From Alcanivoracaceae bacterium (lineage in GTDB: Bacteria > Pseudomonadota > Gammaproteobacteria > Xanthomonadales > Marinicellaceae), in the NCBI GenBank assembly GCA_016744455.1, contig JADGEI010000023.1, forward strand, positions 20,584-59,582: 38,999 bases of DNA, read 5' to 3'. This document shows positions 7,595-26,330 of the stretch, piece by piece. Position numbers and translations under genes: made by a program. Position 1 is the first letter of the stretch. Every line of letters starts with the position of its first letter. The notes under the pieces were generated by a model. That model worked only from the letters and a program-made list of their open reading frames with translations. It did no database searches and was not told where the DNA came from.

Positions 7595-7649
7595 AGTCAT
7601 AATCCTGTCAGGTTTGTGCCATTATTCAAATGGCATTTAAAGCTATGAT
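7595..7649 (+). promoter_or_regulatory. Promoter with 11-bp-spaced GTCA/TGCCA direct repeats
   Basis: Three units stand at an exact 11-bp period: AGTCATAATCC (7595), TGTCAGGTTTG (7606) and TGCCATTATTC (7617). A -10-like TATGAT (7644-7649) follows 21 nt after the last TGCCAT. The segment 7606-7636 matches the promoter of the operon starting at 21485 (minus strand) at 26 of 31 positions, with the same 21-nt spacing to the -10 element. Direct repeats at one helical turn are how OmpR/PhoB winged-helix proteins bind. It would drive the broken beta-helix gene and perhaps the two regulator genes downstream. Confidence 0.6.
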
Positions 7650-7669: not shown

Positions 7670-8367
7670 ATGGTTTTTATGAAAAAAGATGGATCAGTTT
7701 TAATTATTGTCATGCTATTTGTGACTACTACAATTTTATCAACAGATGGTGTAGTAGAAATGAACCATATTTGTGCAACTCAATTAGGTTGTTTTAGTGG
7801 CGATAGTATTGGTTATCCAGTTTCGATTGATGGTATATCCGGTAAAAATTATCGATTAACCAGTGATTTATTAATTCCAGATGAGAATACTAATGGAATT
7901 GATGTTAATACTTTTAATATTAGCATTGATTTGAATGGGCTTTCTATTGTTCGGTCTGGATGTGAGAACAATGCTGCTTGTGTTGCTGTGACTTCGCTAC
8001 CATGCTGGTAGCGAAATTAATGCTAGTAATGTTGGATTACCTGTTAAAAACGGCAGTATTTTAGGTATGGAACTTGGCGGTATTTTATTTTTTAGTTCTG
8101 GGGGTGTTTTTGAAAATTTACAATTACGATTAAATAGGGTAGGAGGTAATTTGGGTAACAATTCTATCATATCAGGCTCTATAACTTCTAATAATTCAGC
8201 AATAGGGATTTTATTAAGGGAAGGATCTATTGTAAGAAATAATACTGTTTCATACAATGGTGATCAAGGTGTTTATGCGACAAAAAGTGTTTTAATTGTT
8301 GAGATTACAGTTTGTAGATTTTATGTTTAGTAATGGTTTCGAGGAATGGTTTAGCAAATACGATTAG
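7670..8367 (+). pseudogene. Broken secreted beta-helix protein gene
   Basis: The first frame (7670 or ATG 7679, to 8011) encodes a signal peptide and the N-terminal cap shared by the three intact beta-helix proteins at 24471-28577: DGVVEMNHICATQLGCFSGD, then YRLTSDLLIPDENTNGI and SIDLNGLSIVR. It stops at 8011. The next frame continues the same family without an ATG (about 8007-8330: LPVKNGSILGM, GSIVRNNTVSYNGDQGV). The shift coincides with a perfect hairpin at 7993-8015. A third frame then reads MFSNGFE (8323-8343) and stops at 8365-8367; this looks like a relict of the C-terminal tail found on other secreted proteins here. About the last 100 residues of the beta-helix are missing. A sequencing error could explain one shift but not the lost C-terminus. 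Confidence 0.8.
7993..8015. repeat. Perfect 10-bp inverted repeat at the pseudogene frameshift
   Basis: TTCGCTACCA (7993-8002), loop TGC, and TGGTAGCGAA (8006-8015) form a perfect hairpin. It lies exactly where the beta-helix reading frame is lost. Confidence 0.9.
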
Positions 8368-8456
8368 TTAACCGGATTGTATTGATGGGTTCAATGATGT
8401 TTTCTAAATTGATTGGTTATGATATAGTGAAATTTATTCAATTACATAGAGTTACT

Positions 8457-10730
8457 GTGGTTTATACTTTTTCTAAATTTAGTTTAAATACCTTAACAAA
8501 GGAACTAACTTATTCTGGAAAAAATGTTGGGTTAACAAAGCAAAATTACGAGTTACTGTTATTTTTTCTACAAAGAAATGGCAGGCTAGCATCCAAAGAT
8601 GAAATTATTAAAAGTGTTTGGAAGAAGACAGTTGTAGCTGATAATACAGTTGATAAGAGTTTCACTAAGTTAAAAAAAATATTATGTAAGCATAATGAAA
8701 CCGATTATTTTGAATCTAAGTATGGAGTAGGAATAAGATTTTTACCCAAAATTTTGATTGCTAAAAAACTCACAATTCTCAAATATAAAAACAGTTTAAT
8801 TGCCATTGGACTGATGGCGATATTAACTATCTTTGGTATGCAACTGTTCAAAAAAAATGAGGTTGGCTCAACAATAAAAATTACAAAAGAACGCAAATCA
8901 AATAAGTCATTATTGTTAATTCTGCCAAATGCCCATGTCGATAACAGTCAATGGTGGTCAATGAATAACAAGGAATTGTTTGAACAAGTTTTAGGACAAT
9001 CAACTAATGTATTATTCAAAGATTATCAGACTAAGCCAAAAAATTTAAATGATGATCAATACTTGCAAACTCAATGGCGGATATCACCACAATTAAAGGT
9101 TTTAACCACCGCTATAACAAAGCCAGCTGAAGAATATTCATTAATCCTTAAGTTAATCGATAATAAACAGGAGATAACCTCAACTGTTATTACTGAGATG
9201 GATTTTAACCAAGTGATGAATCTAGCAACTCACTGGCTGGCACGACAATTGGATGCTCATTTAAATAAAGATGCTTTTTTAAGCATTTTTAAAGATCAAA
9301 ATCAAATAGAAATGTATTTAAGGGGGTTAATGAATCATAGAAATGGCAATCATGAGAAAGCAGCTCAGTATTTCGAACTATGTTTGTCTGAAGATAAAAC
9401 ATTCCATCCAGCTCAATACCAATTGGCCGAAACAAAACACCACATGGGGCAAGATGACAAAGCTTTATCTATAGTGGATAGATTGCTCAATCAAAAATTG
9501 AGTCCTGAGTTGGAGATTAAATCTAGTGCTTTAAAAGGGGAAGTATTAGTTAAACAAGGTTACCTCAAACAAGCAAAAAAAGTGTACCAATCTGTGCTAA
9601 AAAAATACCATGTGTACAATTATTCTAGATTAAGCCAATTAAACTTAAAACTAAGTGACGTGTATATCGGTTTGTCGAAAAACAATGAAGCATTAGACAT
9701 ATTAGATCAATTATTACCTGAGTTATCAAGCAACCAAGAACCCGAGCTGATTTCTGATGTATATCTTAAAAAAGCAAATATTTACCAAAAATTAGGTCAG
9801 ACACAATATGCCATAGATACTGTGCGTCACGCACAATTGTTATTCAATCAGATGGGTGATATCAATAGCAATGCCAAAGCACATAGTTTGCTGGCAAGGG
9901 TTGCTCAAAATGATGGCAATTATATAGAAACCGTAAAACAATTGAATAAAACTTTAACGATTGTTAAAGGAATGAATAACAAACTAGCAACTGCTGAAAC
10001 CTTGAGTCAATTAATTAGTGTTATGTTATCTCAAGGGCAATTTGATGAAGCTCAAGAATTGAACGGGGAAATGTTGGCTATTTTGCAAGGCATCAATCGC
10101 CCTTATATCAAGCTTAAAACACTTGATTATGCTATTGAAATATCAAGAGCAAAAAAGCAATGGAAGAAAATGGAAACTTATCTTAATGAGCATCTAATTA
10201 GCGCGATTGGAGTCCATGATATACAATCCCAAATCCGCAATAAATTATTAAGGATTGATCATTGGCTGGATAAAAATCAAGCCTCATTAATAAGACCTGC
10301 TCTTGAAGAACTAAAGCAAAACATAAGTGACCAATCAGATAGTGGATTACAACTGGCGATAAATATTAAATGGGCAAAATACTATGCACTTGTTGATCAA
10401 AGGTCTATAGCAATATCATTGCTGGAAAATACACTTGAAGCTACAAAAGACACTGGAATTATCATTGAAATAAATAATTTATTGGCCAGTTACTACATTG
10501 ATGAACAGTTACCTAAGAAAGCCGTTAAATTACTGCTCAAATCAGAACAATACCAGCCCTTTGCTTACCCTTATTATTTATTGAAGTCAAAGGCAAGTTT
10601 TCATTCTGGAGATGTGGTCAAAGCTTTGGATTATGCCAATAAATGTAAGCATAAAGCCAATCAATTTTGGCAAGCATCAGATGAAAAATATCTACAAGGG
10701 CTCATTGAAACAATGAATAAGCGCGTATGA
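8457..10730 (+). CDS. Winged-helix (CadC/OmpR-type) transmembrane TPR regulator, copy 1
   Basis: This is a predicted one-component membrane regulator. It has a cytoplasmic OmpR/CadC-type winged helix (about residues 3-98; LTKQNYELLLFFLQRNGRLASK and the recognition-helix region VVADNTVDKSFTKL), one transmembrane helix (about 108-128), and a long extracytoplasmic part with TPR-like helical repeats from about residue 260 to the end. It has no receiver domain. In-frame ATG/TTG codons exist at 8382-8397, but GTG 8457 gives a start that matches the tandem copy downstream (VYTFSKF against MIYHFNDF), so I prefer it. It overlaps the next gene by 4 nt (ATGA). Its target is unknown; the beta-helix pseudogene and repeat-containing promoter just upstream suggest surface-protein genes. 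Confidence 0.85.
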   Translation: MVYTFSKFSLNTLTKELTYSGKNVGLTKQNYELLLFFLQRNGRLASKDEIIKSVWKKTVVADNTVDKSFTKLKKILCKHNETDYFESKYGVGIRFLPKILIAKKLTILKYKNSLIAIGLMAILTIFGMQLFKKNEVGSTIKITKERKSNKSLLLILPNAHVDNSQWWSMNNKELFEQVLGQSTNVLFKDYQTKPKNLNDDQYLQTQWRISPQLKVLTTAITKPAEEYSLILKLIDNKQEITSTVITEMDFNQVMNLATHWLARQLDAHLNKDAFLSIFKDQNQIEMYLRGLMNHRNGNHEKAAQYFELCLSEDKTFHPAQYQLAETKHHMGQDDKALSIVDRLLNQKLSPELEIKSSALKGEVLVKQGYLKQAKKVYQSVLKKYHVYNYSRLSQLNLKLSDVYIGLSKNNEALDILDQLLPELSSNQEPELISDVYLKKANIYQKLGQTQYAIDTVRHAQLLFNQMGDINSNAKAHSLLARVAQNDGNYIETVKQLNKTLTIVKGMNNKLATAETLSQLISVMLSQGQFDEAQELNGEMLAILQGINRPYIKLKTLDYAIEISRAKKQWKKMETYLNEHLISAIGVHDIQSQIRNKLLRIDHWLDKNQASLIRPALEELKQNISDQSDSGLQLAINIKWAKYYALVDQRSIAISLLENTLEATKDTGIIIEINNLLASYYIDEQLPKKAVKLLLKSEQYQPFAYPYYLLKSKASFHSGDVVKALDYANKCKHKANQFWQASDEKYLQGLIETMNKRV

Positions 10731-12991
10731 TTTATCATTTTAACGATTTTATTTTTGATAACGCCAATAAGTTTTTAAGTTATGGGCAAGAAAAAATACC
10801 GCTAACCAAGCAACAATATGAATTGTTAACTTTTTTCTTAAAAAATCCCAATACAGTAATTGGTTACGATGAACTAATTTCAACTATTTGGGCAGGCATA
10901 GAGGTCAGTGATAATACGGTTACAAAAAGCATCACTCGGTTAAATAAAGTTCTTGTAGAAATAAGTCAAGTCCGTTTATTTGAAAATAAATACGCTCAAG
11001 GATTTATTTTTTTACAACCTGTAACTATTGTTGAATCAACTAATGACAGTTTGTTTATTGCAAAGAAGAAAAATAAGCCCATTGTTAATAAACCTTTGTT
11101 ACTAGTATTACTGGTTTTGTTATCAGTGGTTTCTATTTATTATTCACAACAACGCAAAAAAGGTAATCAACTAGAAAAACCAGTGATCTTAGTTATGCCT
11201 GAAACTGGATTATCAAATCAATATGCCACTACTCAAGGTTTGATAATGCAGCAACTTTTGTTATTATCAAACAATGTATTGTTTAAAGGTATTCAAGACA
11301 AGCCAAAAGATTTAGAAGACTTAAAATTTATTAGCAAGCAAAGAGCTTTGTCAGATAGTTTACAAGTCTTGACTACTAAAATTACTGAGAATAGTGACTC
11401 GATAACCATAAAGTTTAGTTTAGCCAATGAAGATAATATCAAAACCTCACAATCGTTTACCGACAAAACATTTCGCCTTGCTTTTATAAAAGCCAATCAA
11501 TGGTTGCAAGACGAATTGAAACTTGAAAAACAATCGAATATTCCTGTAGAATTTATACCCAAGAACTCCCATCTTTTAAACCTTTATATAAAAGGATTAA
11601 ATAATTTTACTAATGGGGATTTTAATAAAGCCAGTCAACTCTTTACTTTATGCTTATCCGAAGACAATCTATTTCATTTGGCGCGTTTACAATTAGCCAA
11701 AACTGAATATAAACTGGGCAATAATCAGGCAAGTTTAGGGTTGATTGATACGATTGTGCAACTAGTGGATAACCCTGAGTTAATCATAGAAACTGAAATA
11801 TTACATTCAGAAATATTGTATTATAATAAAGACATTGATAAAGCAAAATCAACATTAGTAAACTTACTTAAAAAGTATGAAGGAGTAACTCGCCCAAGTT
11901 TAGAAACTGTTCAATTTCAATTAATTTGGATTTATTATTTTACAGAATCCATAAGCAAAACTCTTGAAGAAATTTCGAAATTAGAAAAGAACTTGGAAGT
12001 AAATCCTAACCCTGAATTACTGGCAAAAACCTTAATAAAAAAAGCAACCATTTTATTGAACTCAGGACAACAAAATAGTGCTTCAATTTCAGTCAATAAA
12101 GCATTAGTATTATTCACTAAACTAGGAAATCTTGCAAAAATTGCCCATTCAGAATTTTTATTGGCAAGAATTTCTACACAACAAGCCCGTTATGATGAAG
12201 CGTTAACCCTACTCAATAAAGGTTTAAGTGTGTTTAAGAAAAAAAATGATTTACATGCAATCTCAGCTACCCTATTTCGGATTGTGAGAGTACATATTTC
12301 ACTAGGTCAGTTCAATTTGGCATCAAAACTGAATCAGGAAAGTGAAAGTTTTGCCAGTAAAAAAGGCCACAAAGGTCTGTTACGTAAGGCTAAAGAAAAT
12401 GCCATCATAATTGCTATCAAACAATCACGTTGGCAATTGGCAGAATTATTGATTGATGAATATTTTTCACATGCAGAAAACTATGAATCACGTACTAGAT
12501 ACATCAATAATCAGTTTTTTAAAATTGATTTATTGCTGGAACAAAAAACTCCCAATGGTGTGATTGAACTTATTAACCAAACCCGTGCTTATTTTAAGAA
12601 GCCCCCATCTAGACGTATTGCTCAGGTTTTAAATTTTAAGCAAGCACAATTGTATCAACTGACCAAACAATACAATGAGGCCATTGCTGTATTGGAATCT
12701 GAATGGAAGAAAGTAGAAAGCAGCAACGACAATGAAAGCAAAATATTCATCAATAACCTATTGGCACAAGTCTATATAGAGAATAAAAATACAATGCGTG
12801 CTGTAGAAATATTAGATCGAAATAAACCACTTAACCCGATTGCTTACCCTTATCTTATGCTCAAAGCCAAGGTGTTATTGCAACAAAACAAAAAACAACA
12901 AGCCATTGAATTGCTTCAAAACTGCAAATCAAAAGCGAATGAATTGTGGACAATTGAGGATCAAAAGTTTTTGTCTTCTATCAAAAATTGA
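10727..12991 (+). CDS. Winged-helix transmembrane TPR regulator, copy 2
   Basis: This 754-residue paralogue of the preceding gene begins in its stop codon. The winged helix covers residues 1-95 (PLTKQQYELLTFFLKN, EVSDNTVTKSITRLNKVL), the transmembrane helix lies near 118-138 (LLLVLLVLLSVVSIYY), and TPR-like repeats run from about 275 to the C-terminus, with the motif FTLCLSEDNLFHLARLQLAKTE recurring in its sister as FELCLSEDKTFHPAQYQLAETK. Order and domain content are collinear with copy 1, so the pair arose by tandem duplication. They may act as a heteromeric pair. No terminator is evident in the 88 bp before the convergent gene. Confidence 0.87.
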   Translation: MIYHFNDFIFDNANKFLSYGQEKIPLTKQQYELLTFFLKNPNTVIGYDELISTIWAGIEVSDNTVTKSITRLNKVLVEISQVRLFENKYAQGFIFLQPVTIVESTNDSLFIAKKKNKPIVNKPLLLVLLVLLSVVSIYYSQQRKKGNQLEKPVILVMPETGLSNQYATTQGLIMQQLLLLSNNVLFKGIQDKPKDLEDLKFISKQRALSDSLQVLTTKITENSDSITIKFSLANEDNIKTSQSFTDKTFRLAFIKANQWLQDELKLEKQSNIPVEFIPKNSHLLNLYIKGLNNFTNGDFNKASQLFTLCLSEDNLFHLARLQLAKTEYKLGNNQASLGLIDTIVQLVDNPELIIETEILHSEILYYNKDIDKAKSTLVNLLKKYEGVTRPSLETVQFQLIWIYYFTESISKTLEEISKLEKNLEVNPNPELLAKTLIKKATILLNSGQQNSASISVNKALVLFTKLGNLAKIAHSEFLLARISTQQARYDEALTLLNKGLSVFKKKNDLHAISATLFRIVRVHISLGQFNLASKLNQESESFASKKGHKGLLRKAKENAIIIAIKQSRWQLAELLIDEYFSHAENYESRTRYINNQFFKIDLLLEQKTPNGVIELINQTRAYFKKPPSRRIAQVLNFKQAQLYQLTKQYNEAIAVLESEWKKVESSNDNESKIFINNLLAQVYIENKNTMRAVEILDRNKPLNPIAYPYLMLKAKVLLQQNKKQQAIELLQNCKSKANELWTIEDQKFLSSIKN

Positions 12992-13079: not shown

Positions 13080-15719
13080 TTACCAAAACAAAGTTGTCGT
13101 TTCACGGCTTTCTAAATCCTGCCATTTACCTATACTCCAAACTTGATTTTTATCTTTGTGGCTCAATCGTATTTGTAAATTGTTGTCTAATTGGCGCAGA
13201 TGGATAAGCATATGATCAAAGCCAAATTCATCAACACCAATTGCAATAGGATAAGGCTTCAGTGTTAAGTTAAGTGCATCAATTTTAGAAAAATTATAAG
13301 TAAGACTTGTCTCATGACTTTTGAATAATACAACCGTTGTTTCAAAGCCATCTGTAAAAATGTTATCACTGACAAAATTGATATCTGTTGCCGAATTATT
13401 GCTCATGTCGGTATCAAATTGATTCGCAGATGAGGCAATAGATGCTGAATACTCAACACTATTAAATGGTGTGTTGATAAGTGTTGCGGAGACGGTATAG
13501 GTGAGACTTTGAAATGCTGGGATATTTACCACATCATTTATTGTACCATTTCCACTGGCACTACAACTGGCTGAACCTGATGCATTGCAAATCCATGAAG
13601 TGCTAAGAATTTCTAATGGAATACTGTCTGTAACAACCGCATCAACAATATCGATTGTACTTATATTTGTCACAAGTATAGTATAATCAATCAACTCACC
13701 AGCAGAAACAATATCAATATTATCTCCTAAAATTATTTGAGCATCTATTTGAGGAAGGCAGCTAGCCACGTATCCGCCATCGAAGAATGTCCAGCCATGA
13801 GTGTTGATTAATTGTGTTTTTGCATCTTGTGCTTCTTGTGAACAGTACTTGGAGGATCCTCCATGAAAAATAGCGTTTTGTGGTACGTTTTGATTGTTCC
13901 AGTTGATTAGTAGGGACTCATAATTTGTTATTGATAACTCACCTGAAAACATGAAATTAAATCCAGATGTTGCATGGATTATAATGTTTTCAATGTTCCA
14001 CATACCAATATCCTGATCAAATGGCGTGTTTGCAAACATTTGAGCCATGTTGGTTACTGATGAAGTATTCCAATTTGAAATATCTTGATTAAAAGGAGAA
14101 TTTTTAAACATTAATGACATGCTTGTTACTAGTGAAGTATCCCAACTACCAATATCCTGATTAAATGATGAATTTCTAAACATTGCACTCATACTTGCTG
14201 CATTTGTTGTGTTCCATTCACTTAAGTCTTGGTTAAATAAAGTAGCATTACTAAACATGCCCTCAAAGCTTGCGACATTAGTTGTATCCCAATTACCAAT
14301 ATCTTGATTAAATGGACTATGAGTAGAGGTCAATCCTAAAAGTGTACCAAACATATATCTCATTTCTATTACTGCGCTTGTATCCCAGCTACCAATATCT
14401 TTATCAAATGAGCTAGCTTCAGAAAATAGGCGGTCCATTAACCTTACAGTTGAAACATCCCAATTCCAGTTTCCATTTCCAGTACCTATTAGTGAGGCAC
14501 CTCTGAACATGCTGCGCAAATTGAAATTGAATGATATTAACCTAGGCGTATCGCTGGCATTAATAATTAAGTTTATACAACCATAGTAGGATGAATCCAT
14601 AGATTTCCAGTGAATAGTGCCCCATTGTTCAATAACAGTAATTTTTTCTCGGTCATTAGTTAATACAAGTGGACTCCCAAAAAGAATTTGTGGAAATATT
14701 CCTTTGATCCTAACTGTATATGTTCCTGCGACACCAAAATCATGAGTGGCATCACCTGTATATGGAATGATTTCATCACTATCATTGAAGTCTCCATCGT
14801 TATTCCAATCTACTTGATAATTATAGGTAAAGTTTGAGTTTGTAGGAATGGTTATTGAAGTGTCATTTGAGCTACCTGCATTATCTGTCTTCCAAGTAGT
14901 AATAAAATAAGCAGCATCACATAAACCACCATCTGTAATCATCCACATATCATTGTTTGCCATATTTGCTCGTGCTAATTGGGCTGGTTCTGAGCAATAT
15001 TGCGTAGTGCCAAGATCTAATGATAAATTGGGTTGTAAAATTTGTGCATTCCAACCAACCAATAAAGCATCGTAATTACCGCTGGACAATGTCACACCAA
15101 AAAACATATTATCAATAGTGTTCACTGATTCCATATTCCACATGCTAATATCCTCATCAAATGAAGAGGCATTAGAGAACACTGCATTCATGGTGCTGAT
15201 ATTGCTGGTGTCCCAGTTCCAGTTTGCACTGCCTATTCCTATTAAACTGGCATTGCGGAACATTTGATTCAGGCTGACTACACCTGCTAGATTAGGCGTA
15301 TCCATGGCATTGTTGATTAAATTACTTGTGCCATGAAAAGCCTTGAGCATTGAGGTCCAAGCGATAGTGCCCCATTGGACAATACTTAAAATTTTATTTT
15401 TATCTCCTTCATTGTTGAAATAGATACGTGGGAAGCTACCACGAATCTGAACCACATAAACTCCAGGTGTTATATAATCATGTGTTATGCCGCCAGTTAT
15501 ACCAAACTCATCAAAATTACCATCACCATCCCAATCAATATCATAATTATATCCAGAACCAGTGGTTGGGATATGAATGGACGATGCATTCGATGAACCT
15601 GTGCTAGTTTGGCTGGTATCCCAAGATGTAATAAAATAGTTGCTAGTTCCAGCTACAGTATAGTCAGATAATAAGAGGGCTGTGATACAGAAGAGAATAA
15701 TTTTGGTTTTGGTTAACAT
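13080..15719 (-). CDS. Secreted BspA-like (DUF285) repeat protein with DUF11 domain, long C-terminal extension
   Basis: This 879-residue exported protein has a signal peptide (ending YTVAG). Two PKD-like modules follow, each with an Asp-rich D-W-D-G-D-G-type loop that may bind calcium (near residues 60-70 and 300-315). Then come BspA/DUF285 leucine-rich-like repeats of the [11 protein letters not shown]-x-V-x-x-M-x-x-MF type. A DUF11-type domain lies at about 655-785, followed by the tail motif IFTDGFE at 787-793. Unlike the other tailed proteins it continues for 86 more residues, ending TTTLFW. It is the last gene of a leftward three-gene cluster and a paralogue of its upstream neighbour. 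AAGG lies 8 nt before ATG 15719. DUF285 repeats occur in surface proteins; the ligand is unknown. Confidence 0.85.
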   Translation of the reverse strand: MLTKTKIILFCITALLLSDYTVAGTSNYFITSWDTSQTSTGSSNASSIHIPTTGSGYNYDIDWDGDGNFDEFGITGGITHDYITPGVYVVQIRGSFPRIYFNNEGDKNKILSIVQWGTIAWTSMLKAFHGTSNLINNAMDTPNLAGVVSLNQMFRNASLIGIGSANWNWDTSNISTMNAVFSNASSFDEDISMWNMESVNTIDNMFFGVTLSSGNYDALLVGWNAQILQPNLSLDLGTTQYCSEPAQLARANMANNDMWMITDGGLCDAAYFITTWKTDNAGSSNDTSITIPTNSNFTYNYQVDWNNDGDFNDSDEIIPYTGDATHDFGVAGTYTVRIKGIFPQILFGSPLVLTNDREKITVIEQWGTIHWKSMDSSYYGCINLIINASDTPRLISFNFNLRSMFRGASLIGTGNGNWNWDVSTVRLMDRLFSEASSFDKDIGSWDTSAVIEMRYMFGTLLGLTSTHSPFNQDIGNWDTTNVASFEGMFSNATLFNQDLSEWNTTNAASMSAMFRNSSFNQDIGSWDTSLVTSMSLMFKNSPFNQDISNWNTSSVTNMAQMFANTPFDQDIGMWNIENIIIHATSGFNFMFSGELSITNYESLLINWNNQNVPQNAIFHGGSSKYCSQEAQDAKTQLINTHGWTFFDGGYVASCLPQIDAQIILGDNIDIVSAGELIDYTILVTNISTIDIVDAVVTDSIPLEILSTSWICNASGSASCSASGNGTINDVVNIPAFQSLTYTVSATLINTPFNSVEYSASIASSANQFDTDMSNNSATDINFVSDNIFTDGFETTVVLFKSHETSLTYNFSKIDALNLTLKPYPIAIGVDEFGFDHMLIHLRQLDNNLQIRLSHKDKNQVWSIGKWQDLESRETTTLFW

Positions 15720-15775
15720 ATTTATACCTTGTAGGTTAATTATTGATTAATATTTGTGTTAGTTTTTGACAATCT

Positions 15776-18325
15776 CTATTCAAAGCCATTGAAAAACATA
15801 ACAGTATTATTGTTGGTATCGGTTCGTCCATTGTTGCCTGGATTAGAATCAATTTGAGATGATGTGGATGCAATGACTGAATAGGCCACATCTACAAAAA
15901 ATTCATCCGTGAGTAATGCCGACACTAGGTAAGTAAGGGTTTCACCTACTGGTACGTTAACGGTGTCAATTATTGGACCAGTTCCTGATGCTGTACAAGT
16001 TGCAGTGCCTGTTGCGATACAAGTCCAACTCGTTGCAATAATTGCATCCGATTTGAAGTCCTTAATTAAGCTATTACTAGCACCATTTGGCCCTGAATTA
16101 CTAATAATAACTATATAATCTACCACATCACCAGATGAAACTATTTCAATGCCATCAGATAAGCTAACAGATAAATCTATATTGTCAGTGCACATGGGAT
16201 CAACCCCTCCATCTGAGATAGTCCAGTTAGAAATATTTTCAAGGTTTAACCGGGCATTTATTGCTGTTTGTGAACAATATTGAGAGTTACCACCAGTAAA
16301 CGATATATTTGTAGGCAAATTTTGCATTTCCCAACCCGTCAATAAAGCGTCGTAATTTGATGTTGACAAAGTGACCCCGCCTAAAAAATTAAACAGGCCG
16401 GTGCTTACCATCTCAATATTCCAAGCGCTTAAGTCTTGATCAAAATTAACAGCATTGTTAAACATAAAGCTCATAAAAGACACCATTGAAGTATCCCAGT
16501 TTCCTATGTCTTGGTTAAAAGAAGTGGCAGAGTTAAACATATTTCCCATGTCTGTAACCAAAGCAGTATTCCAAGATCCTATGTCTTGATTAAAAGCAAT
16601 GTTGTCTTTAAACATGTGCGACATAGAATTGACCATCGCAGTATTCCATTGTCCAATGGGTTGATTAAATGCCTGTGCATTTTGAAACATTATTGCCATA
16701 TTAGTCACTGAGCTTGTATTCCACATACCAATATTTTGATTAAAGCTTATGGCACTTTCAAACATTGAAGCCATTGATGTTACTGATGACGTATTCCATT
16801 GTCCAATATCTTGATCAAAGGCACTGGCTCCAGCAAATGTACCAAACATTATCTCGACGTTGGCGGTATTCCATTGCCCAATGTCTTGATTGAATGCCAC
16901 GGCATTATCAAACATTCTTAAAAATGAAATAGCAGATGACGTATTCCACAGGCCAATATCTTGGTTAAATGAACTGGCATCGCTAAATATAAAATCAAAT
17001 CCCTCAACCAAAGAGGTGTTCCACGCACCAATGTTTTTATTAAACAGGGGTGCATCATTAAACATTCTTCCCATATTGGTAATTGTACTGGTGTCCCAAT
17101 TCCAATTGCCTGTACCTGTACCCAGTATCGATGCAGAGGAAAACATAGCATCAAGAGAGGTAGCATTAGATAAATCAGGTGCATCTTGTGCATCAATGAC
17201 TAGGTTTGAAGCTCCTTTAAATGCTCTTTCCATCGAGGCCCATTGTTGTATTCCCCATTGATCTACAGACAATATTTTTTCTTTGTCACCCAGGTCGTTA
17301 AAATAGAGTCGAGGGAAATTGCCTTTTATATGTATAGTGTAAGCTCCTGGTGTGCCAAAATCATGGGTAACAGATGTGGTGTAAATGGTTGATTCATCTG
17401 CATCATCAAAATCACTGTCCCCATTCCAATTGACTTGATAGGAATAGCCCACGCCAACTACTGGTATATTTATTGAGCTATTATTTGAAGAACCTGGATT
17501 GTCTGTTTTCCAGGTTGTCGCAAAAACATCAGGATCAAGGGAGCACAAACCACCATCAGAAATAGCCCAACCATCATTGTTCTCAATGTTAGACTTAGCT
17601 GTTTGAGCAGTGCTTGAACAAAAAACAGAATTCCCACCGTCAAAAGTTTGATTCGACTGTAAGTTTTGTATGTCCCAACCAATCAACAGCGCGTCATAAT
17701 TATCAGCAGATAGAGTGGCGCCAGTAAACATATTGGAAAAATCACTTCCATTTTCTACATTCCATGATCCAAGATTTTCATTAAACGATGGTGCAAAGCT
17801 AAACATGCCTGAGAAATCACTGATATTACTTGTGTTCCAATTCCAAATGCCTGACCCCGTACCAATTAAACTGCCCTCACGAAACATTTGTCTTAAGCTC
17901 GTAGCCATGCTGAGATTGGGGGTATCAGTTGCATCAATAACTAAATTAATGGCGCCATAAAAGGCTTTTTCCATTGAGGACCAAGGGCCAGTCCCCCATT
18001 GATTAATGGCAATTATTTTTTCCTTGTCATTTGTGTCATTAAAATAAATTCTTGGAAAGTTCCCACTGATGGTAACTGTATATTCTCCAGCAAGACCATA
18101 ATCATGACTAGTAGATCCTGTCACTCCAATTGCATCAAATATGCCATCTGATTCCCAATCAATATCATATAAATATCCTGGTCCCTGAGTAGGGATGTGA
18201 ATCGATGTCGCATTTGATGCACCTGGGTTATCGGTTTTCCAACGACTGATAAAATCTTCAGATGCAGAGTGTGCAAAGTTTGCCAAAAAAAGGCTCAATA
18301 TGATTAAGATTGCTTTATTTTTCAT
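15776..18325 (-). CDS. Secreted BspA-like (DUF285) repeat protein with DUF11 domain
   Basis: This 849-residue exported protein has a signal peptide (ending FAHSA), two PKD-like modules each with an Asp-rich loop ([12 protein letters not shown] and [13 protein letters not shown]), and about ten BspA/DUF285 repeats ([33 protein letters not shown] and others). One DUF11-type domain near residues 710-840 precedes the exact C-terminal tail MFFNGFE. Pairs of cysteines recur after each repeat block (QYCSQTA, VFCSSTA). The gene lies 56 bp upstream of its paralogue and 31 bp downstream of the large secreted protein gene, so all three are probably co-transcribed. AGGA precedes ATG 18325. It is probably exposed on the surface or in the medium. 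Confidence 0.87.
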
Positions 18326-18356: not shown

Positions 18357-21300
18357 TTATTCAAAATCGTCACGGAACACAAAGCTAGGGACTAAATTGA
18401 TAGGCATAAACATGGGTGTAACAAAATCAGATAGAGTTGTATTTCCATTTTCAAAATCCCTGATCAAATAAGCCAAGTTTAAGATTTCCTTGTTTCTATA
18501 GGTGTTTAAGATATTTTGAGCACCAGCTTGTGGTGTCACCTTGCCCGATAATGTCCAATCAGCTTGTTCTATATCGCTTGCCAATTGAATTTTTGTGCTT
18601 TCTGTCCAAAAGATTGCCATGCCATCATCAGTTGCTATTACAGCACCATCAGACAATTCTGATCCTATGCCACCATCAAGTACAGGTTCAGCTGATCCAA
18701 AGGCTATCACTGGATTAGCAGATAAATCTCCCTGTAATTGCATCACAGTATCGACTTGTCGCCATAAAATAATAGGCTCACCACTGTTACTAAATGCTGA
18801 GATTGGAGAATCATCTAACAGCGTATCGTTAGTCATCTGAACCGGAGGGTTCCAGAGGCCTTGAGTTTTAACTATGTGGAATAGTTCGCGATCATTGGCT
18901 GTAGCAAAATCTTGATCAGTATCCAATACCACTGACACTAACATTTCACCTTCAGTAAAACTGGCAGGTGACCATCCCAATGTGAAACTTAAATCATCTG
19001 CAACATTGTGTTCTGGTGTCCATGCTTGTGATGTTGAATCCCAAGAGCTACTGTGAATGGAAACGGTGTTAATTGTGTCTCCAAAGATATGAGAGCCATT
19101 GGCACGTTGCCAAAACACATGTAATTTATCGTTGTTATCTCGTTTAATGATAGGGCCAAAGTCATTGCTGTTGTTTGTAGTAATTTGCCCTGTTGTAATC
19201 AACAAATTGGTATTGGGATTAAATACCATATAATGTAATTCCAATCCATTAGCAAATGTGTCTAAATCATTGGTGGTCAGTGGTAAAAATTCTATACTTC
19301 TTTGGTAAACAATAACCAAGTTGCCATTATCGTCAAACTCAATGGCCGGAGCCATATCAGCATCGACATCATTGGTCAGTGTTTGAATTGCTCCCCAGTT
19401 TGAGCCATCCCATATGCGTAATTTAATATCACCTGATGGTCGATTCTGTCCAAGGGGTAATTCACTCCAAACAGCCGCGCCAAAGTCTTTATTAACAGCC
19501 ATGGACAATTGCCCATCAGCTGGCACCCAGCCTTGTGAACTCTGAGTCTTTGTTTGGAATCTTGCAGTACAGGTATCACCAAAGGGCCAATCATGGCTGG
19601 GATTAACACCCAGTCCAAGAAAGGACACTTTAGCCCCCACATTGACTTCTCCCCCAAGTTTATTCATATCAAAATTGGGCGAAAACTGAAATTCAATACA
19701 ACCAGATCCACCGCCTTCGATACTCACATTGGCCAATGATCGTAAAGGTTTTGGTATGGCATTAACACTAATTTGTGCTGAAAGATTGCCAGTTAATTGA
19801 CCAGTGCCCCATTTAATCTCACTGTTTTCACTGATAAAAGTTCCATCACCAGTTATCGTGGCATCAGCCTCACCCTTAATGCCAAAACTATTGATTAAAT
19901 TACATAATGCGCCACTTAACCCACAAACAGCAGGTGCTAAACCTGGAATTGCCGTAACAGGATTTAAAGTTTTCTGCCAGTTTAATCCTGAAAATTGTGC
20001 AGTTGCATCGCCATCGGTGGTTAAATCATCACAGGTCAAAGTGGTGGAATTATTACCATTAAGATCAAAGGAAAAAATCTTTCCAGCCAAATTGATGTTA
20101 GCTTGGGTACTTAAATCGCCATTACCTACCGACCCATCAGAATGAGCATTGGTATTGAATTCAGAACTAATTGAACCCGAGACTCCCCACAAACCTGTCA
20201 TTAATGAAAGCGTATCAACTGTTTGGGTGGTTTCTAATGATACAGGCCAGTCTAAAGTAGCTTCATAATTTATGACGCTATCACCAATGCTGCCGCTCCA
20301 TTCAGTGGACATGCCAGCCCAAGCAGGCACCGAGATTTTATTAGTATTGATTTCCCATTCTAATGAATCACCGCTTTGACTAATGGCCTTGGCTTTAATA
20401 CTCGTACCTGATTCACCTGCATCAAAATTCCAAGTGGTTTCTTCACCTGTTGCATCAATTGTTTCAGTTGTGCTGCCATAGGTGAACTCAATTTGGTGTG
20501 TTTCATCAGATTCTTTCCAATCGACTGTTACAGTGACACTGGTATTGACATTGACATCCAATAAATAGTATTTTTTTTCATCTAATTTTAGGTCTGTAAT
20601 CGCAGGTGATTTAGGATTAGATTGAAAATCAGCTGTTAATTCAGCTGTTACTGTGTCTTGGAAAAGCATGGTTGAATATTGATAATATAAATATTCGTCT
20701 GGTAAATTGGCTGGGTCAACCAGTTCTGGTTCATGACCCACATTGTGATAATCTAGTACAAAATGCTGTCCCATTTTTTCTAGCCATGATTGACTGTCTA
20801 GAATTGTTAATTCAGGGTTCCAATGTGTTGATGTCATTGGATCATATGCGGAATCTAGTAATTTAATTTTTTCAATATAACCCGATACATCAATGTCATC
20901 ATGACCATTTGTCCACTCACCCCAGAAACAATCTACATTTATTATAAAGTTAGAGTCATCTAGAACAGTTAATGTTGCTTCATCAATGGTTAATTCTAGC
21001 TCTAACTCTCCTACGGCAGTTACATTTCCTGTAATAGAATATGTTCTTTCAACCTCAATATTCCAGTTCATTTCATTGGGAGGTAATTGATTTAAAACGC
21101 TAGTGCACACTTCGGAATTATCAAATTCTTTGGTTATAACGCCTGAAATTTTATCTTTTCCCTGCCCAGTAACGCTACCATCACAATCTATATCAAGAAA
21201 ATTAGCATCTTGTCCATCGATTAACTCTACTTGCAGCGAGCCACTGCTATTAAAATTATCATAGGGATCTCCTCCATATTTTTCTGTACCACTAATTTCA

Positions 21301-21485
21301 TAGATTCCATTTAATTGTGTAAAGGCTACTCTGCCACTAGTGAATTGGGTTGAGATAGCGCAATCTTCAGGTAGTGGTTCTACTGGACAAGTGCCTTGGA
21401 TATTTGCAGAAGTGTGACAAGAAAATGTCAGGTTGACTAAAACTATAAACCATGCCAAGTAGAAAAAATTAAAACAGCCTTTCAT
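18357..21485 (-). CDS. Large secreted protein with C-terminal propeller-like repeats and F-x-D-D-F-E tail
   Basis: This is a 1042-residue exported protein I cannot assign to a named family. It has an N-terminal signal peptide (about residues 1-28) and then a Cys-containing beta-rich region with repeated GxLELELTIDEATLTVLDDS-like strands. The middle is Gly/Ser/Thr-rich (about 390-640). The C-terminal 380 residues hold repeats of the kind APAIEFDDNGNLVIVYQR, PIIKRDNNDKLHVFWQR and SPISAFSNSGEPIILWRQ, which look like blades of a beta-propeller. It ends VFRDDFE, the same tail as its operon partners. It is first in the leftward cluster and has a distinctive promoter with four TGTCA repeats directly upstream. 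Function is unknown; a binding or extracellular-matrix role is a guess. Confidence 0.8.
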   Translation of the reverse strand: MKGCFNFFYLAWFIVLVNLTFSCHTSANIQGTCPVEPLPEDCAISTQFTSGRVAFTQLNGIYEISGTEKYGGDPYDNFNSSGSLQVELIDGQDANFLDIDCDGSVTGQGKDKISGVITKEFDNSEVCTSVLNQLPPNEMNWNIEVERTYSITGNVTAVGELELELTIDEATLTVLDDSNFIINVDCFWGEWTNGHDDIDVSGYIEKIKLLDSAYDPMTSTHWNPELTILDSQSWLEKMGQHFVLDYHNVGHEPELVDPANLPDEYLYYQYSTMLFQDTVTAELTADFQSNPKSPAITDLKLDEKKYYLLDVNVNTSVTVTVDWKESDETHQIEFTYGSTTETIDATGEETTWNFDAGESGTSIKAKAISQSGDSLEWEINTNKISVPAWAGMSTEWSGSIGDSVINYEATLDWPVSLETTQTVDTLSLMTGLWGVSGSISSEFNTNAHSDGSVGNGDLSTQANINLAGKIFSFDLNGNNSTTLTCDDLTTDGDATAQFSGLNWQKTLNPVTAIPGLAPAVCGLSGALCNLINSFGIKGEADATITGDGTFISENSEIKWGTGQLTGNLSAQISVNAIPKPLRSLANVSIEGGGSGCIEFQFSPNFDMNKLGGEVNVGAKVSFLGLGVNPSHDWPFGDTCTARFQTKTQSSQGWVPADGQLSMAVNKDFGAAVWSELPLGQNRPSGDIKLRIWDGSNWGAIQTLTNDVDADMAPAIEFDDNGNLVIVYQRSIEFLPLTTNDLDTFANGLELHYMVFNPNTNLLITTGQITTNNSNDFGPIIKRDNNDKLHVFWQRANGSHIFGDTINTVSIHSSSWDSTSQAWTPEHNVADDLSFTLGWSPASFTEGEMLVSVVLDTDQDFATANDRELFHIVKTQGLWNPPVQMTNDTLLDDSPISAFSNSGEPIILWRQVDTVMQLQGDLSANPVIAFGSAEPVLDGGIGSELSDGAVIATDDGMAIFWTESTKIQLASDIEQADWTLSGKVTPQAGAQNILNTYRNKEILNLAYLIRDFENGNTTLSDFVTPMFMPINLVPSFVFRDDFE

Positions 21486-21514: not shown

Positions 21515-21586
21515 ATACTAAAACAACATGATATTTGAATAATGACAAAACCCTGACAAGACCATGACAAGAGCCTGACATTGTCA
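21515..21586 (-). promoter_or_regulatory. Pho-box-like promoter: four TGTCA repeats at 11-bp period
   Basis: On the plus strand TGACA occurs at 21543, 21554, 21565 and 21576, an exact 11-bp period (TGTCA on the minus strand). The outermost unit also forms the palindrome TGACA-T-TGTCA (21576-21586). A -10-like TAGTAT (21520-21515) follows 21 nt after the last TGTCAT, leaving a leader of about 20-25 nt before ATG 21485. The half-site and spacing resemble the E. coli Pho box (CTGTCAT repeated every 11 bp). It shares 26 of 31 positions with the element at 7606-7636. The rest of the gap, 21587-21829, shows nothing I can name. Confidence 0.65.
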
Positions 21587-21894: not shown

Positions 21895-24162
21895 TTAATC
21901 AGGATTTTGAGCATTAAGTAATATTTTTTCTAATAAGTGTTGGTTCTCAGATAACCACATCTCTTTCGCGATTTGTTTTGCATGCAAAGCGAGTTCGAGG
22001 GATTTTTTATAGTTCTTCTTGTGGTAGCTGATTTCGGCTCGTGCAATTAAATACGGGTAATTCTTTTTATAAGATTCGGGTGTTTTTTCAAGGTATTTTT
22101 CGGCAGTATCCACATCAGTAGTGATGTGTAAATGAAAGTATTCATTATATATTTCATTATACAATTTCGGATGGTCTATTTTTATTGCATATTCTAAGCT
22201 TTGATTGAGGAATGTTAAGGCTTTTTTTAATTGGCCCATTTCTTTTTTTAGAGTAGCTGAATATAAATGAGATACAGCTTTAAATAACAGGTAGTTACTT
22301 ACAATAGACATTTGATGGCAATCATTTAAGTATTTTTCAGCTTCTTTAAATTGTTTATTGTTAGTTGCAATACTACCCATCATACATAGGGTTTCAATTT
22401 GTTTCTTATCTTGTTTTAATTCTTTTGCAATGTTTAGGGCTTGGATACTTTTATTTAAGGCTAAGCTGTAGTTTTTCATGGAATTTGCAATTTCGCTTTC
22501 CAAAGTATAGGCAAAGTATAAAGTATTGATTTCATTTTCGCTCAAAGCTAATTGTGTCATTAAATCTGCATGCTCAAGGGCTTTGGCAAGATTACCTAAC
22601 TCAATTAGGCTGTAGGCGATTTGTGAATGAGCTCCAATAATATTAATTGGATCTTTCATAACTTTGGCAATACCTAATCGTTGTTTTGCGTATTCATATG
22701 AAGCATTATAATTACCCAGTCTTCTATAAATAGTACCTAGTGACGCACTAGCGCTGTGTATGCCAGTGTTGTCGTTGATTGTTTCATAAATTTTTAAAGC
22801 TTTAGTTAAAAATTCTTGTGAAAGAGACAGTTCGCCTTTTGTTAAATAAATATCACCTAATAAATCATAAGATAATGCTATTTTTTGTGGTATATCAAGG
22901 TCTTTAAATAGTGTGACGGCTTGTTGAGCTCTAATTATTGCATTGTCTAGTTCAAGAGTATCTTTGTCAATTTTTGTGAGCCCTAACAAAGTCAGTCCCT
23001 TGAGAATAGGGTGAATGGCTGTATTATTAATTAGTTGATTAAACGTCGATTTGGCTTTTTCGAGCTGTGAGGTACGGTAATAAGCTTGACCAAGCACTAA
23101 CTGAGCTTGAAATAGTATAAGGTTGTTGTTGCTTAATTGGATTACAGATAAAGCTTGGGCTATCGCAGCATTGTAATTAGATAAATGGTATTCTGCTTGT
23201 GCCAAGGCAATACGTGACAGTATAAAATCGGGGTCTTGCTGTAAACAAATTTCAAAAAAGTTCTTCGCCTCATTTACTAGTTGATTATCCAAAGCATTTT
23301 GCCCCCTAATATAATTTTCGACAATAAAGGAATCGTCATGAGTTAAGGGTTTGAAATTATTTTCGCATAAACTGCTTTCGATAAGGGTGTGATTACACAC
23401 CCAATTATTAACTTTATCTACTGCAATAGATAAGTCATCCATCACTACGTTAAATTCAGAACGAATTATGTTTTTTTCTTTGTAGGTTAAATAAAGCGTA
23501 TTCTCTTCTTGCCTAGCGACAATGACATTGTCAGTATCTGTATTGATTTCTCTATTTTGAATAAAATTAATCGGCAATGAATTATCAGAATAGCTTAACA
23601 GTTGATTAAAATAAGAAGTAAGTCCATTAACTTTCCAATCATTTTCTAATGGCTGTGGGTTTTCCATTATAAAATTAATTTTTACATTTTTTGATGGATG
23701 AGATTCATCACTTGTTTTTGAAGAATTAGTTTCTTTAGAATGAATTATCTGTTGTTGTGCGAAATAATATCCAAGGGCCAAAATAATCAATACTCCAGTA
23801 ACTATTTTAACGATTAGAGTAATGTTGTGGTTTTTATTATTTTTTATAGTCGAATCAATAGTGGCAATAAACTGCAATCCAAAACCGTGTATAGTACGGA
23901 TGATTTCACCTTGTTTTTTATTGTCATTTAAGGCTGAACGTAGTTTGCTAGCGGCATGAGCAAGAACATTTTCTGATGCAAAGCTTCTATCCCATAATTT
24001 ATCTAATAGTTCATTTTTTGACACAGCTCTTTCACGATTTTCAATTAAATATAACAATAAGTCGTAAGATTTCTTTTGTAAATGGACTAAATTTCCATTT
24101 ACAAATAATTCTCTAGTCACTAAATCAACAATGATTTTATTAAATTGAATTTTTTGATTCAT
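21895..24162 (-). CDS. Winged-helix transmembrane TPR regulator, copy 3
   Basis: This 755-residue protein has the same architecture as the tandem pair at 8457-12991. An OmpR/CadC-type winged helix covers residues 1-103 (LQKKSYDLLLYLIENRERAVSK, FASENVLAHAASKLRSAL, IRTIHGFGLQF), and one transmembrane helix lies near 113-135 (ITLIVKIVTGVLIILALGYYF). An extracytoplasmic TPR-rich region runs from about residue 265 to the end (AKNFFEICLQQDPDFILSRIALAQAEYHL, ALEHADLMTQLAL). The wing is closer to the classical GFGLQF form than in the other two. The gene is divergent from the beta-helix operon (308 bp between) and lies upstream of the secreted-protein cluster on the same strand, separated by its own terminator. 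The start ATG 24162 has GAG nearby. A role as regulator of either neighbour is inferred from position. Confidence 0.87.
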   Translation of the reverse strand: MNQKIQFNKIIVDLVTRELFVNGNLVHLQKKSYDLLLYLIENRERAVSKNELLDKLWDRSFASENVLAHAASKLRSALNDNKKQGEIIRTIHGFGLQFIATIDSTIKNNKNHNITLIVKIVTGVLIILALGYYFAQQQIIHSKETNSSKTSDESHPSKNVKINFIMENPQPLENDWKVNGLTSYFNQLLSYSDNSLPINFIQNREINTDTDNVIVARQEENTLYLTYKEKNIIRSEFNVVMDDLSIAVDKVNNWVCNHTLIESSLCENNFKPLTHDDSFIVENYIRGQNALDNQLVNEAKNFFEICLQQDPDFILSRIALAQAEYHLSNYNAAIAQALSVIQLSNNNLILFQAQLVLGQAYYRTSQLEKAKSTFNQLINNTAIHPILKGLTLLGLTKIDKDTLELDNAIIRAQQAVTLFKDLDIPQKIALSYDLLGDIYLTKGELSLSQEFLTKALKIYETINDNTGIHSASASLGTIYRRLGNYNASYEYAKQRLGIAKVMKDPINIIGAHSQIAYSLIELGNLAKALEHADLMTQLALSENEINTLYFAYTLESEIANSMKNYSLALNKSIQALNIAKELKQDKKQIETLCMMGSIATNNKQFKEAEKYLNDCHQMSIVSNYLLFKAVSHLYSATLKKEMGQLKKALTFLNQSLEYAIKIDHPKLYNEIYNEYFHLHITTDVDTAEKYLEKTPESYKKNYPYLIARAEISYHKKNYKKSLELALHAKQIAKEMWLSENQHLLEKILLNAQNPD

Positions 24163-24470
24163 TACTCAAATTTTGAATAGGGGTTTATGCATTTTAATAG
24201 AGGCTCTTAAATGTTCCATGACTTGTTGTAATAACTCTAATATAACAGAAAAACCTAAAAGCACCCACTTTGTTAGCCTCTAATTACAAATTAATGATTG
24301 GGATTAAATTAAATTTCATTTGTTCAATAAAATATTAACTTCCCATCTCTTTGATTTTAAAGAAAAATATTGAGTGCATAAAAAACTAAAAAAAAACTAT
24401 GAAAAAATTAAGGACTAATCTTGCTTGATTTTTTATTCTAAAAGCCGTTTTAATATTTTCAAAAATACTT
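24163..24470. other. Divergent intergenic region with inverted repeat
   Basis: This 308-bp, very AT-rich spacer separates the third regulator (-) from the beta-helix operon (+). TTAATAGAGGCT (24194-24205) and AGCCTCTAATTA (24275-24286) form an inverted repeat matching at 10 of 12 positions, about 70 bp apart, and could be operator halves. I see no TGTCA repeats here and no convincing -35/-10 pair. Confidence 0.35.
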
Positions 24471-25478: not shown

Positions 25479-26330
25479 ATGAAAATAAGACAATCAAAAA
25501 TAGTAGCTGTTATAACCTTGTTACTACTTTTTGTCATGCAAGTACGGGCCGTTGATGGGGTTGTTGAAATTAATCAAACCTGTGCTATTCAGACGGGATG
25601 TTTTGGCGGTGACACATCAGGATTTCCAATTCACATCCAAAGTATCTCTACAGCTAAAAGTTTTAAATTAACCAGTGATTTAATACTTCCAAATGAAAAC
25701 ACTACTGGAATTTCTATTCTAACTTCAAATGTGAATATTGATTTTAATGGCTTTATGATTGCTCGTGCGGGTTGTGAAAATGGTTCGTGCAATATACTCG
25801 TCGGTTCAGGTGTGGCAATTACAGCTGGAAACACTATTGATAATATACAGATATACAATGGTACAGTTTCAGGCATGGGTGATAATGGTATTAGAATAGT
25901 GGGAGAATTCAACATTATCCGAAACATGAGAGTATTTTACAGTGGTGATGATGGGATTGATTTTGGTAGTAATGGTATCGTTGAAAGAAATATTGTTTCT
26001 AAGAATAATGATCAGGGAATCGTATTGGATAATAGTAATACAATTATAAACAATGTGGTTTCACATAATGTTGATATTGGAATTTTTGCAAGTAGTTCAA
26101 ATTTTATTATACAAAATACAGTAACTAATAATGACAGAGGTATTTTTGCAAATTCAAATAGTCATATTATAGCAAATACCATCAGTAACAACATGCAAGA
26201 AGGGTTGGTTTTGGGTAGCACTACGTCAGCTTACAGTCGAAATGTAATCACTAACAACCTTACTGGAACAGTATCTGGTGGTACCAATCTTGGTAATAAC
26301 CTTTGTAACACTAACACTGTATGTCCATAA
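25479..26330 (+). CDS. Secreted right-handed parallel beta-helix protein 2
   Basis: This 283-residue paralogue of its neighbour has a signal peptide (ending MQVRA), the cap VDGVVEINQTCAIQTGCFGGD, the strand SFKLTSDLILPNENTTGI, beta-helix coils (NTIINNVVSHNVDIGIFA, NFIIQNTVTNNDRGIFA), and the closing NLCNTNTVCP. It is the closest intact relative, by eye, of the pseudogene at 7670. A strong Shine-Dalgarno sequence AGAGGAG (25466-25472) lies 6 nt before ATG 25479. The next gene's Shine-Dalgarno sequence overlaps its stop codon. No catalytic residues are recognisable, so the role could be structural or carbohydrate binding. Confidence 0.87.
   Translation: MKIRQSKIVAVITLLLLFVMQVRAVDGVVEINQTCAIQTGCFGGDTSGFPIHIQSISTAKSFKLTSDLILPNENTTGISILTSNVNIDFNGFMIARAGCENGSCNILVGSGVAITAGNTIDNIQIYNGTVSGMGDNGIRIVGEFNIIRNMRVFYSGDDGIDFGSNGIVERNIVSKNNDQGIVLDNSNTIINNVVSHNVDIGIFASSSNFIIQNTVTNNDRGIFANSNSHIIANTISNNMQEGLVLGSTTSAYSRNVITNNLTGTVSGGTNLGNNLCNTNTVCP

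Follow-up and report, generated by a model that had tools for sequence, protein, structure and literature searches.

Several groups of regulators with a winged helix of the OmpR/PhoB type can be compared with the promoter element described here. The half-site of PhoB is TGTCA, repeated every 11 bp in the Pho box. HilA and YgeH carry a winged helix followed by a TPR-type part and are soluble, and SARP regulators are likewise not membrane-bound, unlike the regulators considered below. Regulators of the ToxR/CadC type have the winged helix at the N-terminus, without a receiver, together with one hydrophobic segment and an extracytoplasmic domain. For SARP/AfsR proteins, the accessible part of one report gives an OmpR-type winged helix with TPR-type parts and, close to the −10 element, direct repeats with a spacing of 11 or 22 bp (PMC10936776). 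We analysed a stretch of 38,999 nucleotides from an Alcanivoracaceae bacterium (contig JADGEI010000023.1, positions 20,584 to 59,582; C31:20584-59582 of a genome of 3.62 Mb in 47 contigs), hereafter the window, in which two sites, A and B, are each made of a tandem array of 11-bp units starting with TCA, followed by a −10 hexamer at position 26, counted from where the last unit begins (offset 26; Table 1). With a probability of about 0.7, and judging from sequence, we read A and B as operator arrays of regulated promoters, at which membrane-bound regulators combining a winged helix-turn-helix (wHTH) with a TPR domain, each lineage with its own word, would control genes for exported proteins.

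Each described system shares part of this arrangement. In common with PhoB are the 11-bp direct repeats, the TGTCA word at A and B and the wHTH family PF00486, but the three window regulators gave no match to a receiver-domain family, and the last unit lies one repeat further from the −10 (26 as compared with 15–16). The predicted domain order is that of the ToxR/CadC type plus a TPR domain: the winged helix lies near the N-terminus in the three window regulators, without a receiver and with one hydrophobic segment, and an extracytoplasmic domain is presumed. The best sequence match of the 782-residue protein among solved proteins is CadC (5ju7_A, E 1.1e-8); the CadC family model is matched at 27 bits, far under its cut-off of 400. 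What sets the window type apart from ToxR/CadC is the additional TPR domain of several hundred residues, the long iterated 11-bp arrays and the many paralogues per genome; the accessible part of the main text of a survey of transmembrane regulators contains neither of the words TPR and tetratricopeptide (PMC10269533). The likeness to SARP/AfsR extends to both protein and repeats, but the SARP 3′ repeat, 8 bp from the −10 in the accessible part of the report, is one unit closer than the last unit here, which starts 26 before it (PMC10936776), and the AfsR model is matched at 28 bits, far under its cut-off of 1430. The winged helices also match the HilA/YgeH family model, at 43 and 47 bits and thus far under the cut-off of 589. 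Among the literature matches listed, from a search with subscription papers mostly outside it, none described, for these bacteria, wHTH-TPR regulators together with arrays of 11-bp units.

The initial annotation had pointed to one module at two distant loci, and the likeness of A and B is borne out: 26 of 31 bases are identical, while the best match to A reaches 23 of 31 in 200 dinucleotide shuffles of the window and 21 of 31 elsewhere in the window itself. The TGTCA-type repeats every 11 bp are present as well, with four perfect units at B and one perfect and two imperfect ones at A (AGTCA/TGTCA/TGCCA), and the common block ATTATTCAAAT corresponds to the last unit plus its edge; CATTATTCAAAT is common to both sites. 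The spacing to the −10 is equal at A and B as claimed, its value being 22 nt rather than 21 when the bases between the last TG(T/C)CA and the hexamer are counted. By eye, the −35 sequences of both are poor. Pairs of TGTCA-N6-TGTCA with mismatches occur in the window at chance level (55, with 49.9 expected), and it is therefore the whole module that counts. In this genome, only A and B were found to combine the TGTCA word with the offset-26 geometry. Exact CATTATTCAAAT occurs at eight places, namely A, B, four inside open reading frames (ORFs) and two outside ORFs of at least 90 residues (L034, L038); the last two were rejected as further sites, no repeat array being visible by eye.

Table 1. 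Features of the window discussed in the text (positions count from the first base of the window)
Feature	Position	Strand	Details
Site A	7606-7636	+	TGTCAGGTTTGTGCCATTATTCAAATGGCAT
Putative operator array, site A	7597..7629	+	Units TCATAATCCTG (7597-7607), TCAGGTTTGTG (7608-7618), CCATTATTCAA (7619-7629); basis: sequence
−10 hexamer of A	7644..7649	+	TATGAT, position 26 from first base of last unit
Gene behind A	7670..8011	+	Start of exported beta-helix-type protein gene, broken, 113-residue ORF; similarity to 25479-26330
87-residue ORF	8067-8330	+	In another frame, behind the 113-residue ORF
782-residue regulator	8382..10730	+	Contains TPR repeats, a winged helix (PF00486) and, near residue 138, a hydrophobic segment; best candidate for reading both sites
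754-residue regulator	10727..12991	+	Same type, adjoins the 782-residue regulator
Gene behind B	18357..21485	−	1042-residue exported protein, end -RDDFE
−10 hexamer of B	21515..21520	−	TAGTAT, position 26 from first base of last unit
Site B	21558 down to 21528	−	TGTCAGGGTTTTGTCATTATTCAAATATCAT
Putative operator array, site B	21535..21578	−	Units TCAGGCTCTTG (21578-21568), TCATGGTCTTG (21567-21557), TCAGGGTTTTG (21556-21546), TCATTATTCAA (21545-21535); basis: sequence
755-residue regulator	21895..24162	−	Same type, another lineage, beside B
A-rich 11-bp repeat	24380..24418	.	Between the 755-residue regulator and beta-helix genes; conserved in congener G002

The geometry recurs across genomes. 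In 61 of them, the pattern TCA-N8-TCA-N8-TCA-N22-TANNNT has 165 matches as against 4 for its reverse; of the 165, the genus accounts for 60, the remainder of the family for 83 and the remainder of the order for 22. Control geometries, set against their own reversed patterns in the same genomes, gave 17 vs 5 at offset 21, 52 vs 7 at offset 15 and 25 vs 15 for a 10-bp period with the same gap. When promoters were picked by the TCA triple alone with at most one mismatch (28 promoters), TANNNT stood at offset 26 in 13 and at offset 27 in 3, every other offset having at most 3; the count of 13 was reached in none of 5000 shuffles (maximum 9) and none of 5000 rotations (maximum 11) of the downstream DNA. 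Exact TCA triples of period 11 in promoters number 14 in regulator loci and 1 in control loci, those of periods 9, 10, 12 and 13 number 3, 3, 0 and 0 in regulator loci, and control loci have none of the latter. In intergenic DNA, period 11 compared with eight other periods of 8–16 together gave 6 vs 4 at scores of at least 20 in 13 regulator loci of this genome (two of which, L120 and L121, overlap by 4.4 kb) and 9 vs 4 in 20 congener loci, and it does not stand out in 20 control regions of this genome (2 vs 3); at score 18 the values are 13 vs 19, 18 vs 19 and 6 vs 30, respectively. Regulator loci outside the genus (19 loci, 10.5 kb of intergenic DNA) point in the same direction with small numbers, 4 vs 5 at score 18 and 2 vs 1 at score 20. 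Repeats of 11 bp, but with different words, precede several of the genes related to B's target, an example being TCACGATTAAT in G004.

Within this genome, a composite pattern allowing two mismatches gave 37 matches as against 23 for the reversed control, and two-mismatch matches are therefore mostly chance. With at most one mismatch, seven remain, five of them promoters (A, B, C13:30683, C22:19163, C22:8482) and two inside ORFs (C13:76386, C18:1608). TGTCA triples with one mismatch occur at 28 places in 33 genomes, compared with 8 for the control; among the 12 such loci that were read, only G002:C4:28071 was judged to be an offset-26 array before an exported-protein gene, encoding a protein of 690 residues that ends in FKNGFE, and no wHTH gene was found within the 18 kb examined around it. 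Other repeat arrangements were seen at L139:8191-8470 (G004:C514), where two array stretches stand back to back between divergent genes, with seven 11-bp units toward an exported-protein gene, and at G000:C7:8898-9065, where TGTCAAAC-N4-CGTCA occurs at five places with 38-bp spacing as a tandem repeat.

The expectation of the initial annotation that a genome scan would reveal further modules upstream of secreted or tail-bearing genes was confirmed, since many of the same geometry were found here and in relatives, mostly before exported-protein genes and some with an -FE tail. In a sample of 30 loci from the 165 matches, one per genome, 27 loci gave 28 sites, one of them without an ORF (L250, L253 and L261 gave none inside the position limit), and 23 of the 27 ORFs behind these sites look exported by eye. 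In a set of 29 arrays assembled by hand, the ORF behind 28 begins, again by eye, like a signal peptide or a membrane anchor, the exception being L126b. A crude count in control ORFs, which takes in membrane proteins and does not serve as a rate, gives hydrophobic N-termini in 86 of 189.

The arrays also lie close to a particular kind of regulator gene. This genome has 25 matches to PF00486, of which 9 fall into ORFs of 228–247 residues, the size of response regulators; the remaining 16 genes were taken as the wHTH group of interest. Among exact offset-26 matches of this genome, five of eight lie at most 5 kb from one of these 16 (binomial P 8e-6), which mostly carry TPR repeats. All 36 regulators scanned, from this genome and four congeners plus one more, match PF00486, and 34 of them match TPR_12. 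A hydrophobic stretch of 19 residues (mean at least 1.6) follows the winged helix in 35 of 38 regulators as judged by hydropathy only, with means of 2.13, 2.42 and 2.35 in the three window regulators.

Finally, the 11-bp word co-varies with the lineage of the regulator. A Mantel comparison of word and regulator gave r 0.63 for 21 regulators (0 of 2000 permutations) and r 0.37 after thinning to 13 regulators under 60% identity (2 of 2000). Words resembling TCAGAATTAAA occur with regulator lineages that have NSIDQIISKLRK, TCTTGCAATTG-like ones with lineages that have DAALNKQI-RLR and TCACGATTAAT-like ones with those that have NTIDQSISKLKK. The comparison of 21 regulators took in 27 less 3 further arrays, merged by regulator, with B and four orphan arrays outside it. 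One regulator for a dispersed set of surface proteins, as suggested initially, is consequently too simple: the shared geometry before exported-protein genes stands, while words vary from array to array, in step with the lineage of the neighbouring wHTH gene, which indicates a family of paralogous regulators.

Several observations weigh against this reading. For three of the eight exact matches in this genome, there is no wHTH gene at a distance of up to 12 kb or in the stretch examined; the own-genome arrays without such a gene in the DNA examined around them precede a 574-residue protein ending in FENGFE, a 1261-residue exported protein and an 892-residue exported protein ending in VDGFE, the last lying behind one of the two period-11 arrays in control regions. 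At least 14 of the listed offset-26 matches share their −10 with an offset-15 match (e.g. G003:C91, G004:C271) and are longer arrays or Pho-type sites. Triples with one mismatch are less sharp, with 23 at period 11 in regulator loci and 5 in control loci compared with 4–16 and 3–8 at other periods, and the sole exact period-11 triple of the control loci (L156) precedes a non-exported gene. At 50% thinning the Mantel correlation is modest (r 0.39, 9 regulators, 46 of 2000), and the co-variation may come partly from shared ancestry of the loci. The 29 arrays of the word comparison were moreover chosen by hand, 20 from 33 period-11 entries and 9 from other scans. Of the 13 entries left out, two are second entries of arrays already used (L136:5941, L139:8389), and the other 11 have no usable TCA register with a −10 or are A-rich (window 24380, 35344, 36999 and 37538; L124:6898; L128:5345; L133:2204; L135:10756; L135:17427; L147:4772; L156:10511). 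TANNNT stands at 26 in 24 of the 29 and at 27 in 3, a count that is circular, the register having been chosen with the rule in mind; for the plus-strand array of L119, the registers of the triple scan and of the hand-made set differ by 11 bp, and only that of the triple scan gives TANNNT at 26.

What carries the reading of A and B as operators of wHTH-TPR regulators are the repeats, their fixed spacing, the kind of target, the closeness to regulator genes and the co-variation with lineage, all of them features of the DNA and its predicted products. Binding by the regulators, an activating instead of a repressing role, the location of the TPR domain relative to the membrane and the nature of the signal are our inferences. 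The regulators would present a cytoplasmic OmpR/PhoB-type winged helix, joined by one hydrophobic segment to a presumably periplasmic TPR domain. By analogy with PhoB and SARP proteins, protomers would bind head to tail on the 11-bp direct repeats, one per unit. Placing the start of the −10 at about −12 would put the last unit at about −38 to −28, and a protomer bound there could help RNA polymerase at a promoter that has a −10 but a poor −35. The hydrophobic segment together with the TPR domain suggests that the regulator senses some state outside the cytoplasm.

As for which regulator reads A and B, we lean slightly towards the 782-residue protein for both. In congener G002, a relative of this regulator (331 of 762 residues identical, 43%; tree support 100/99) stands directly behind a 61%-identical relative of B's target, and the 782-residue regulator, encoded behind A in the window, shares the recognition-helix core NTVDKSFTKLKK with this relative. 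The match to B's target in G002 (L085 / L134, G002:C34:2233-3597) covers residues 588-1042 only and is preceded by another gene, so that this locus may be a remnant or rearranged. The 755-residue regulator is closer to B than the 782-residue one, which speaks against the assignment, and it is possible, if rather unlikely, that B is read by this neighbour and A by the adjacent 782- or 754-residue regulator, in which case A and B would resemble each other by shared descent or because their words converged. Such an arrangement would agree with the adjacency of array and regulator as a general rule and with the end of the 755-residue gene about 310 bp before the B array. However, the 755-residue protein belongs to another lineage with another recognition helix (NVLAHAASKL), the A-rich array beyond its gene is conserved with its G002 relative (61% identity), and among the 21 regulators compared the word nearest to that of B is that of A. 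This A-rich repeat is perhaps the 755-residue regulator's own array, a weak case because of its A-richness. We therefore prefer the 782-residue regulator for both sites, on account of the G002 pairing, the shared helix core and the other lineage of the 755-residue protein with a conserved array on its other side.

Geometry alone cannot distinguish activator from repressor sites, and the last unit overlaps the −35 region, as would suit a repressor. We nevertheless consider repression improbable, since PhoB and the SARP proteins, which have similar repeats, act as activators, the upstream repeat of the AfsR complex lies at −40 to −30, the place estimated here for the last unit, with the second repeat one unit further down, according to the accessible part of the report (PMC10936776), and by eye both A and B have a poor −35.

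Somewhat less probable still is that A and B are Pho boxes bound by PhoB, with their targets in the phosphate-starvation regulon. The TGTCA-type direct repeats every 11 bp would fit, and the genome has a pst-phoU-phoB locus on C41 (PstC, PstA, PstB and PhoU models over cut-off, PhoB at 294.5 bits just under its cut-off of 296.2) as well as a PstS-like gene (TIGR02136 below its cut-off, E 1.8e-41) with TGTCATAAAACTGTCAC in front of it. Yet the distance from the last TCA to TANNNT is 15, 15 and 16 at three Pho-type sites of this genome and 26 at A and B, which have no TCA at 15; offset 26 is common to arrays with other words, and the congener pairs a relative of B's target with a wHTH-TPR gene. 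The TGTCA word would still allow cross-binding by PhoB. Genes with Pho-type sites include a 484-residue one (L015) and a 248-residue one (L012), the latter without an NCBIfam match. In locus L131 (G000:C41:1-20000), the Pho locus is preceded by ORFs that by eye resemble an export-energising set of the ExbB/ExbD/TonB type and a large receptor. A chance likeness of A and B in A+T-rich DNA, to which the chance-level number of mismatched TGTCA pairs might point, is refuted, with next to no probability left to it, by 0 of 200 shuffles reaching 26 of 31 and by the 165 vs 4 matches across genomes.

With wHTH-TPR regulators as the readers of such arrays, it appears a little likelier than its opposite that Marinicellaceae and some other Lysobacterales possess many paralogous, mutually insulated wHTH-TPR switches, each with a private word and each serving one or a few exported proteins. 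Duplication followed by drift of recognition helix and word would then have produced a natural series of orthogonal regulator–operator pairs. If so, many exported proteins of a marine bacterial family are under an apparently undescribed promoter architecture that is findable from its letters alone, and the many paralogous pairs of helix and word would offer ready-made data on the specificity code of winged helices of the OmpR/PhoB type. The TPR domains raise the question of whether a state of the envelope is sensed or the state of the regulators' own exported targets.

The genes behind A and B had been described as unrelated secreted-protein genes on opposite strands about 14 kb apart, which agrees with our results: by eye both N-termini look exported, and a common family was not found. 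Over 102 residues, the 113-residue ORF behind A shares 48% identity with the beginning of an intact 283-residue beta-helix protein (25479-26330), and the break in this gene (7670-8330) may be a true one or an assembly error. For the 1042-residue target of B, no Pfam or NCBIfam match was obtained; its relatives occur in Marinicella sediminis, M. litoralis and metagenome-assembled genomes, most of them labelled Lysobacterales, which makes a member of the Marinicellaceae likely as the source of the window. Short acidic C-terminal tails (-DGFE, -NGFE, -DDFE) are frequent on exported proteins of this genome, with window examples at 368-2674, 15776-18325 and 18357-21485 (minus strand), and a loose tail pattern matches 11 of 189 control ORFs of at least 150 residues (control loci L153-L172); the acidic -FE-type tail is possibly a sorting signal. 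Adjoining B's target, the minus-strand region 13080-18325 holds the genes of two further exported proteins of large size, which carry surface repeats of the PARCEL type (TIGR02167) and a weak repeat of the DUF11 type.
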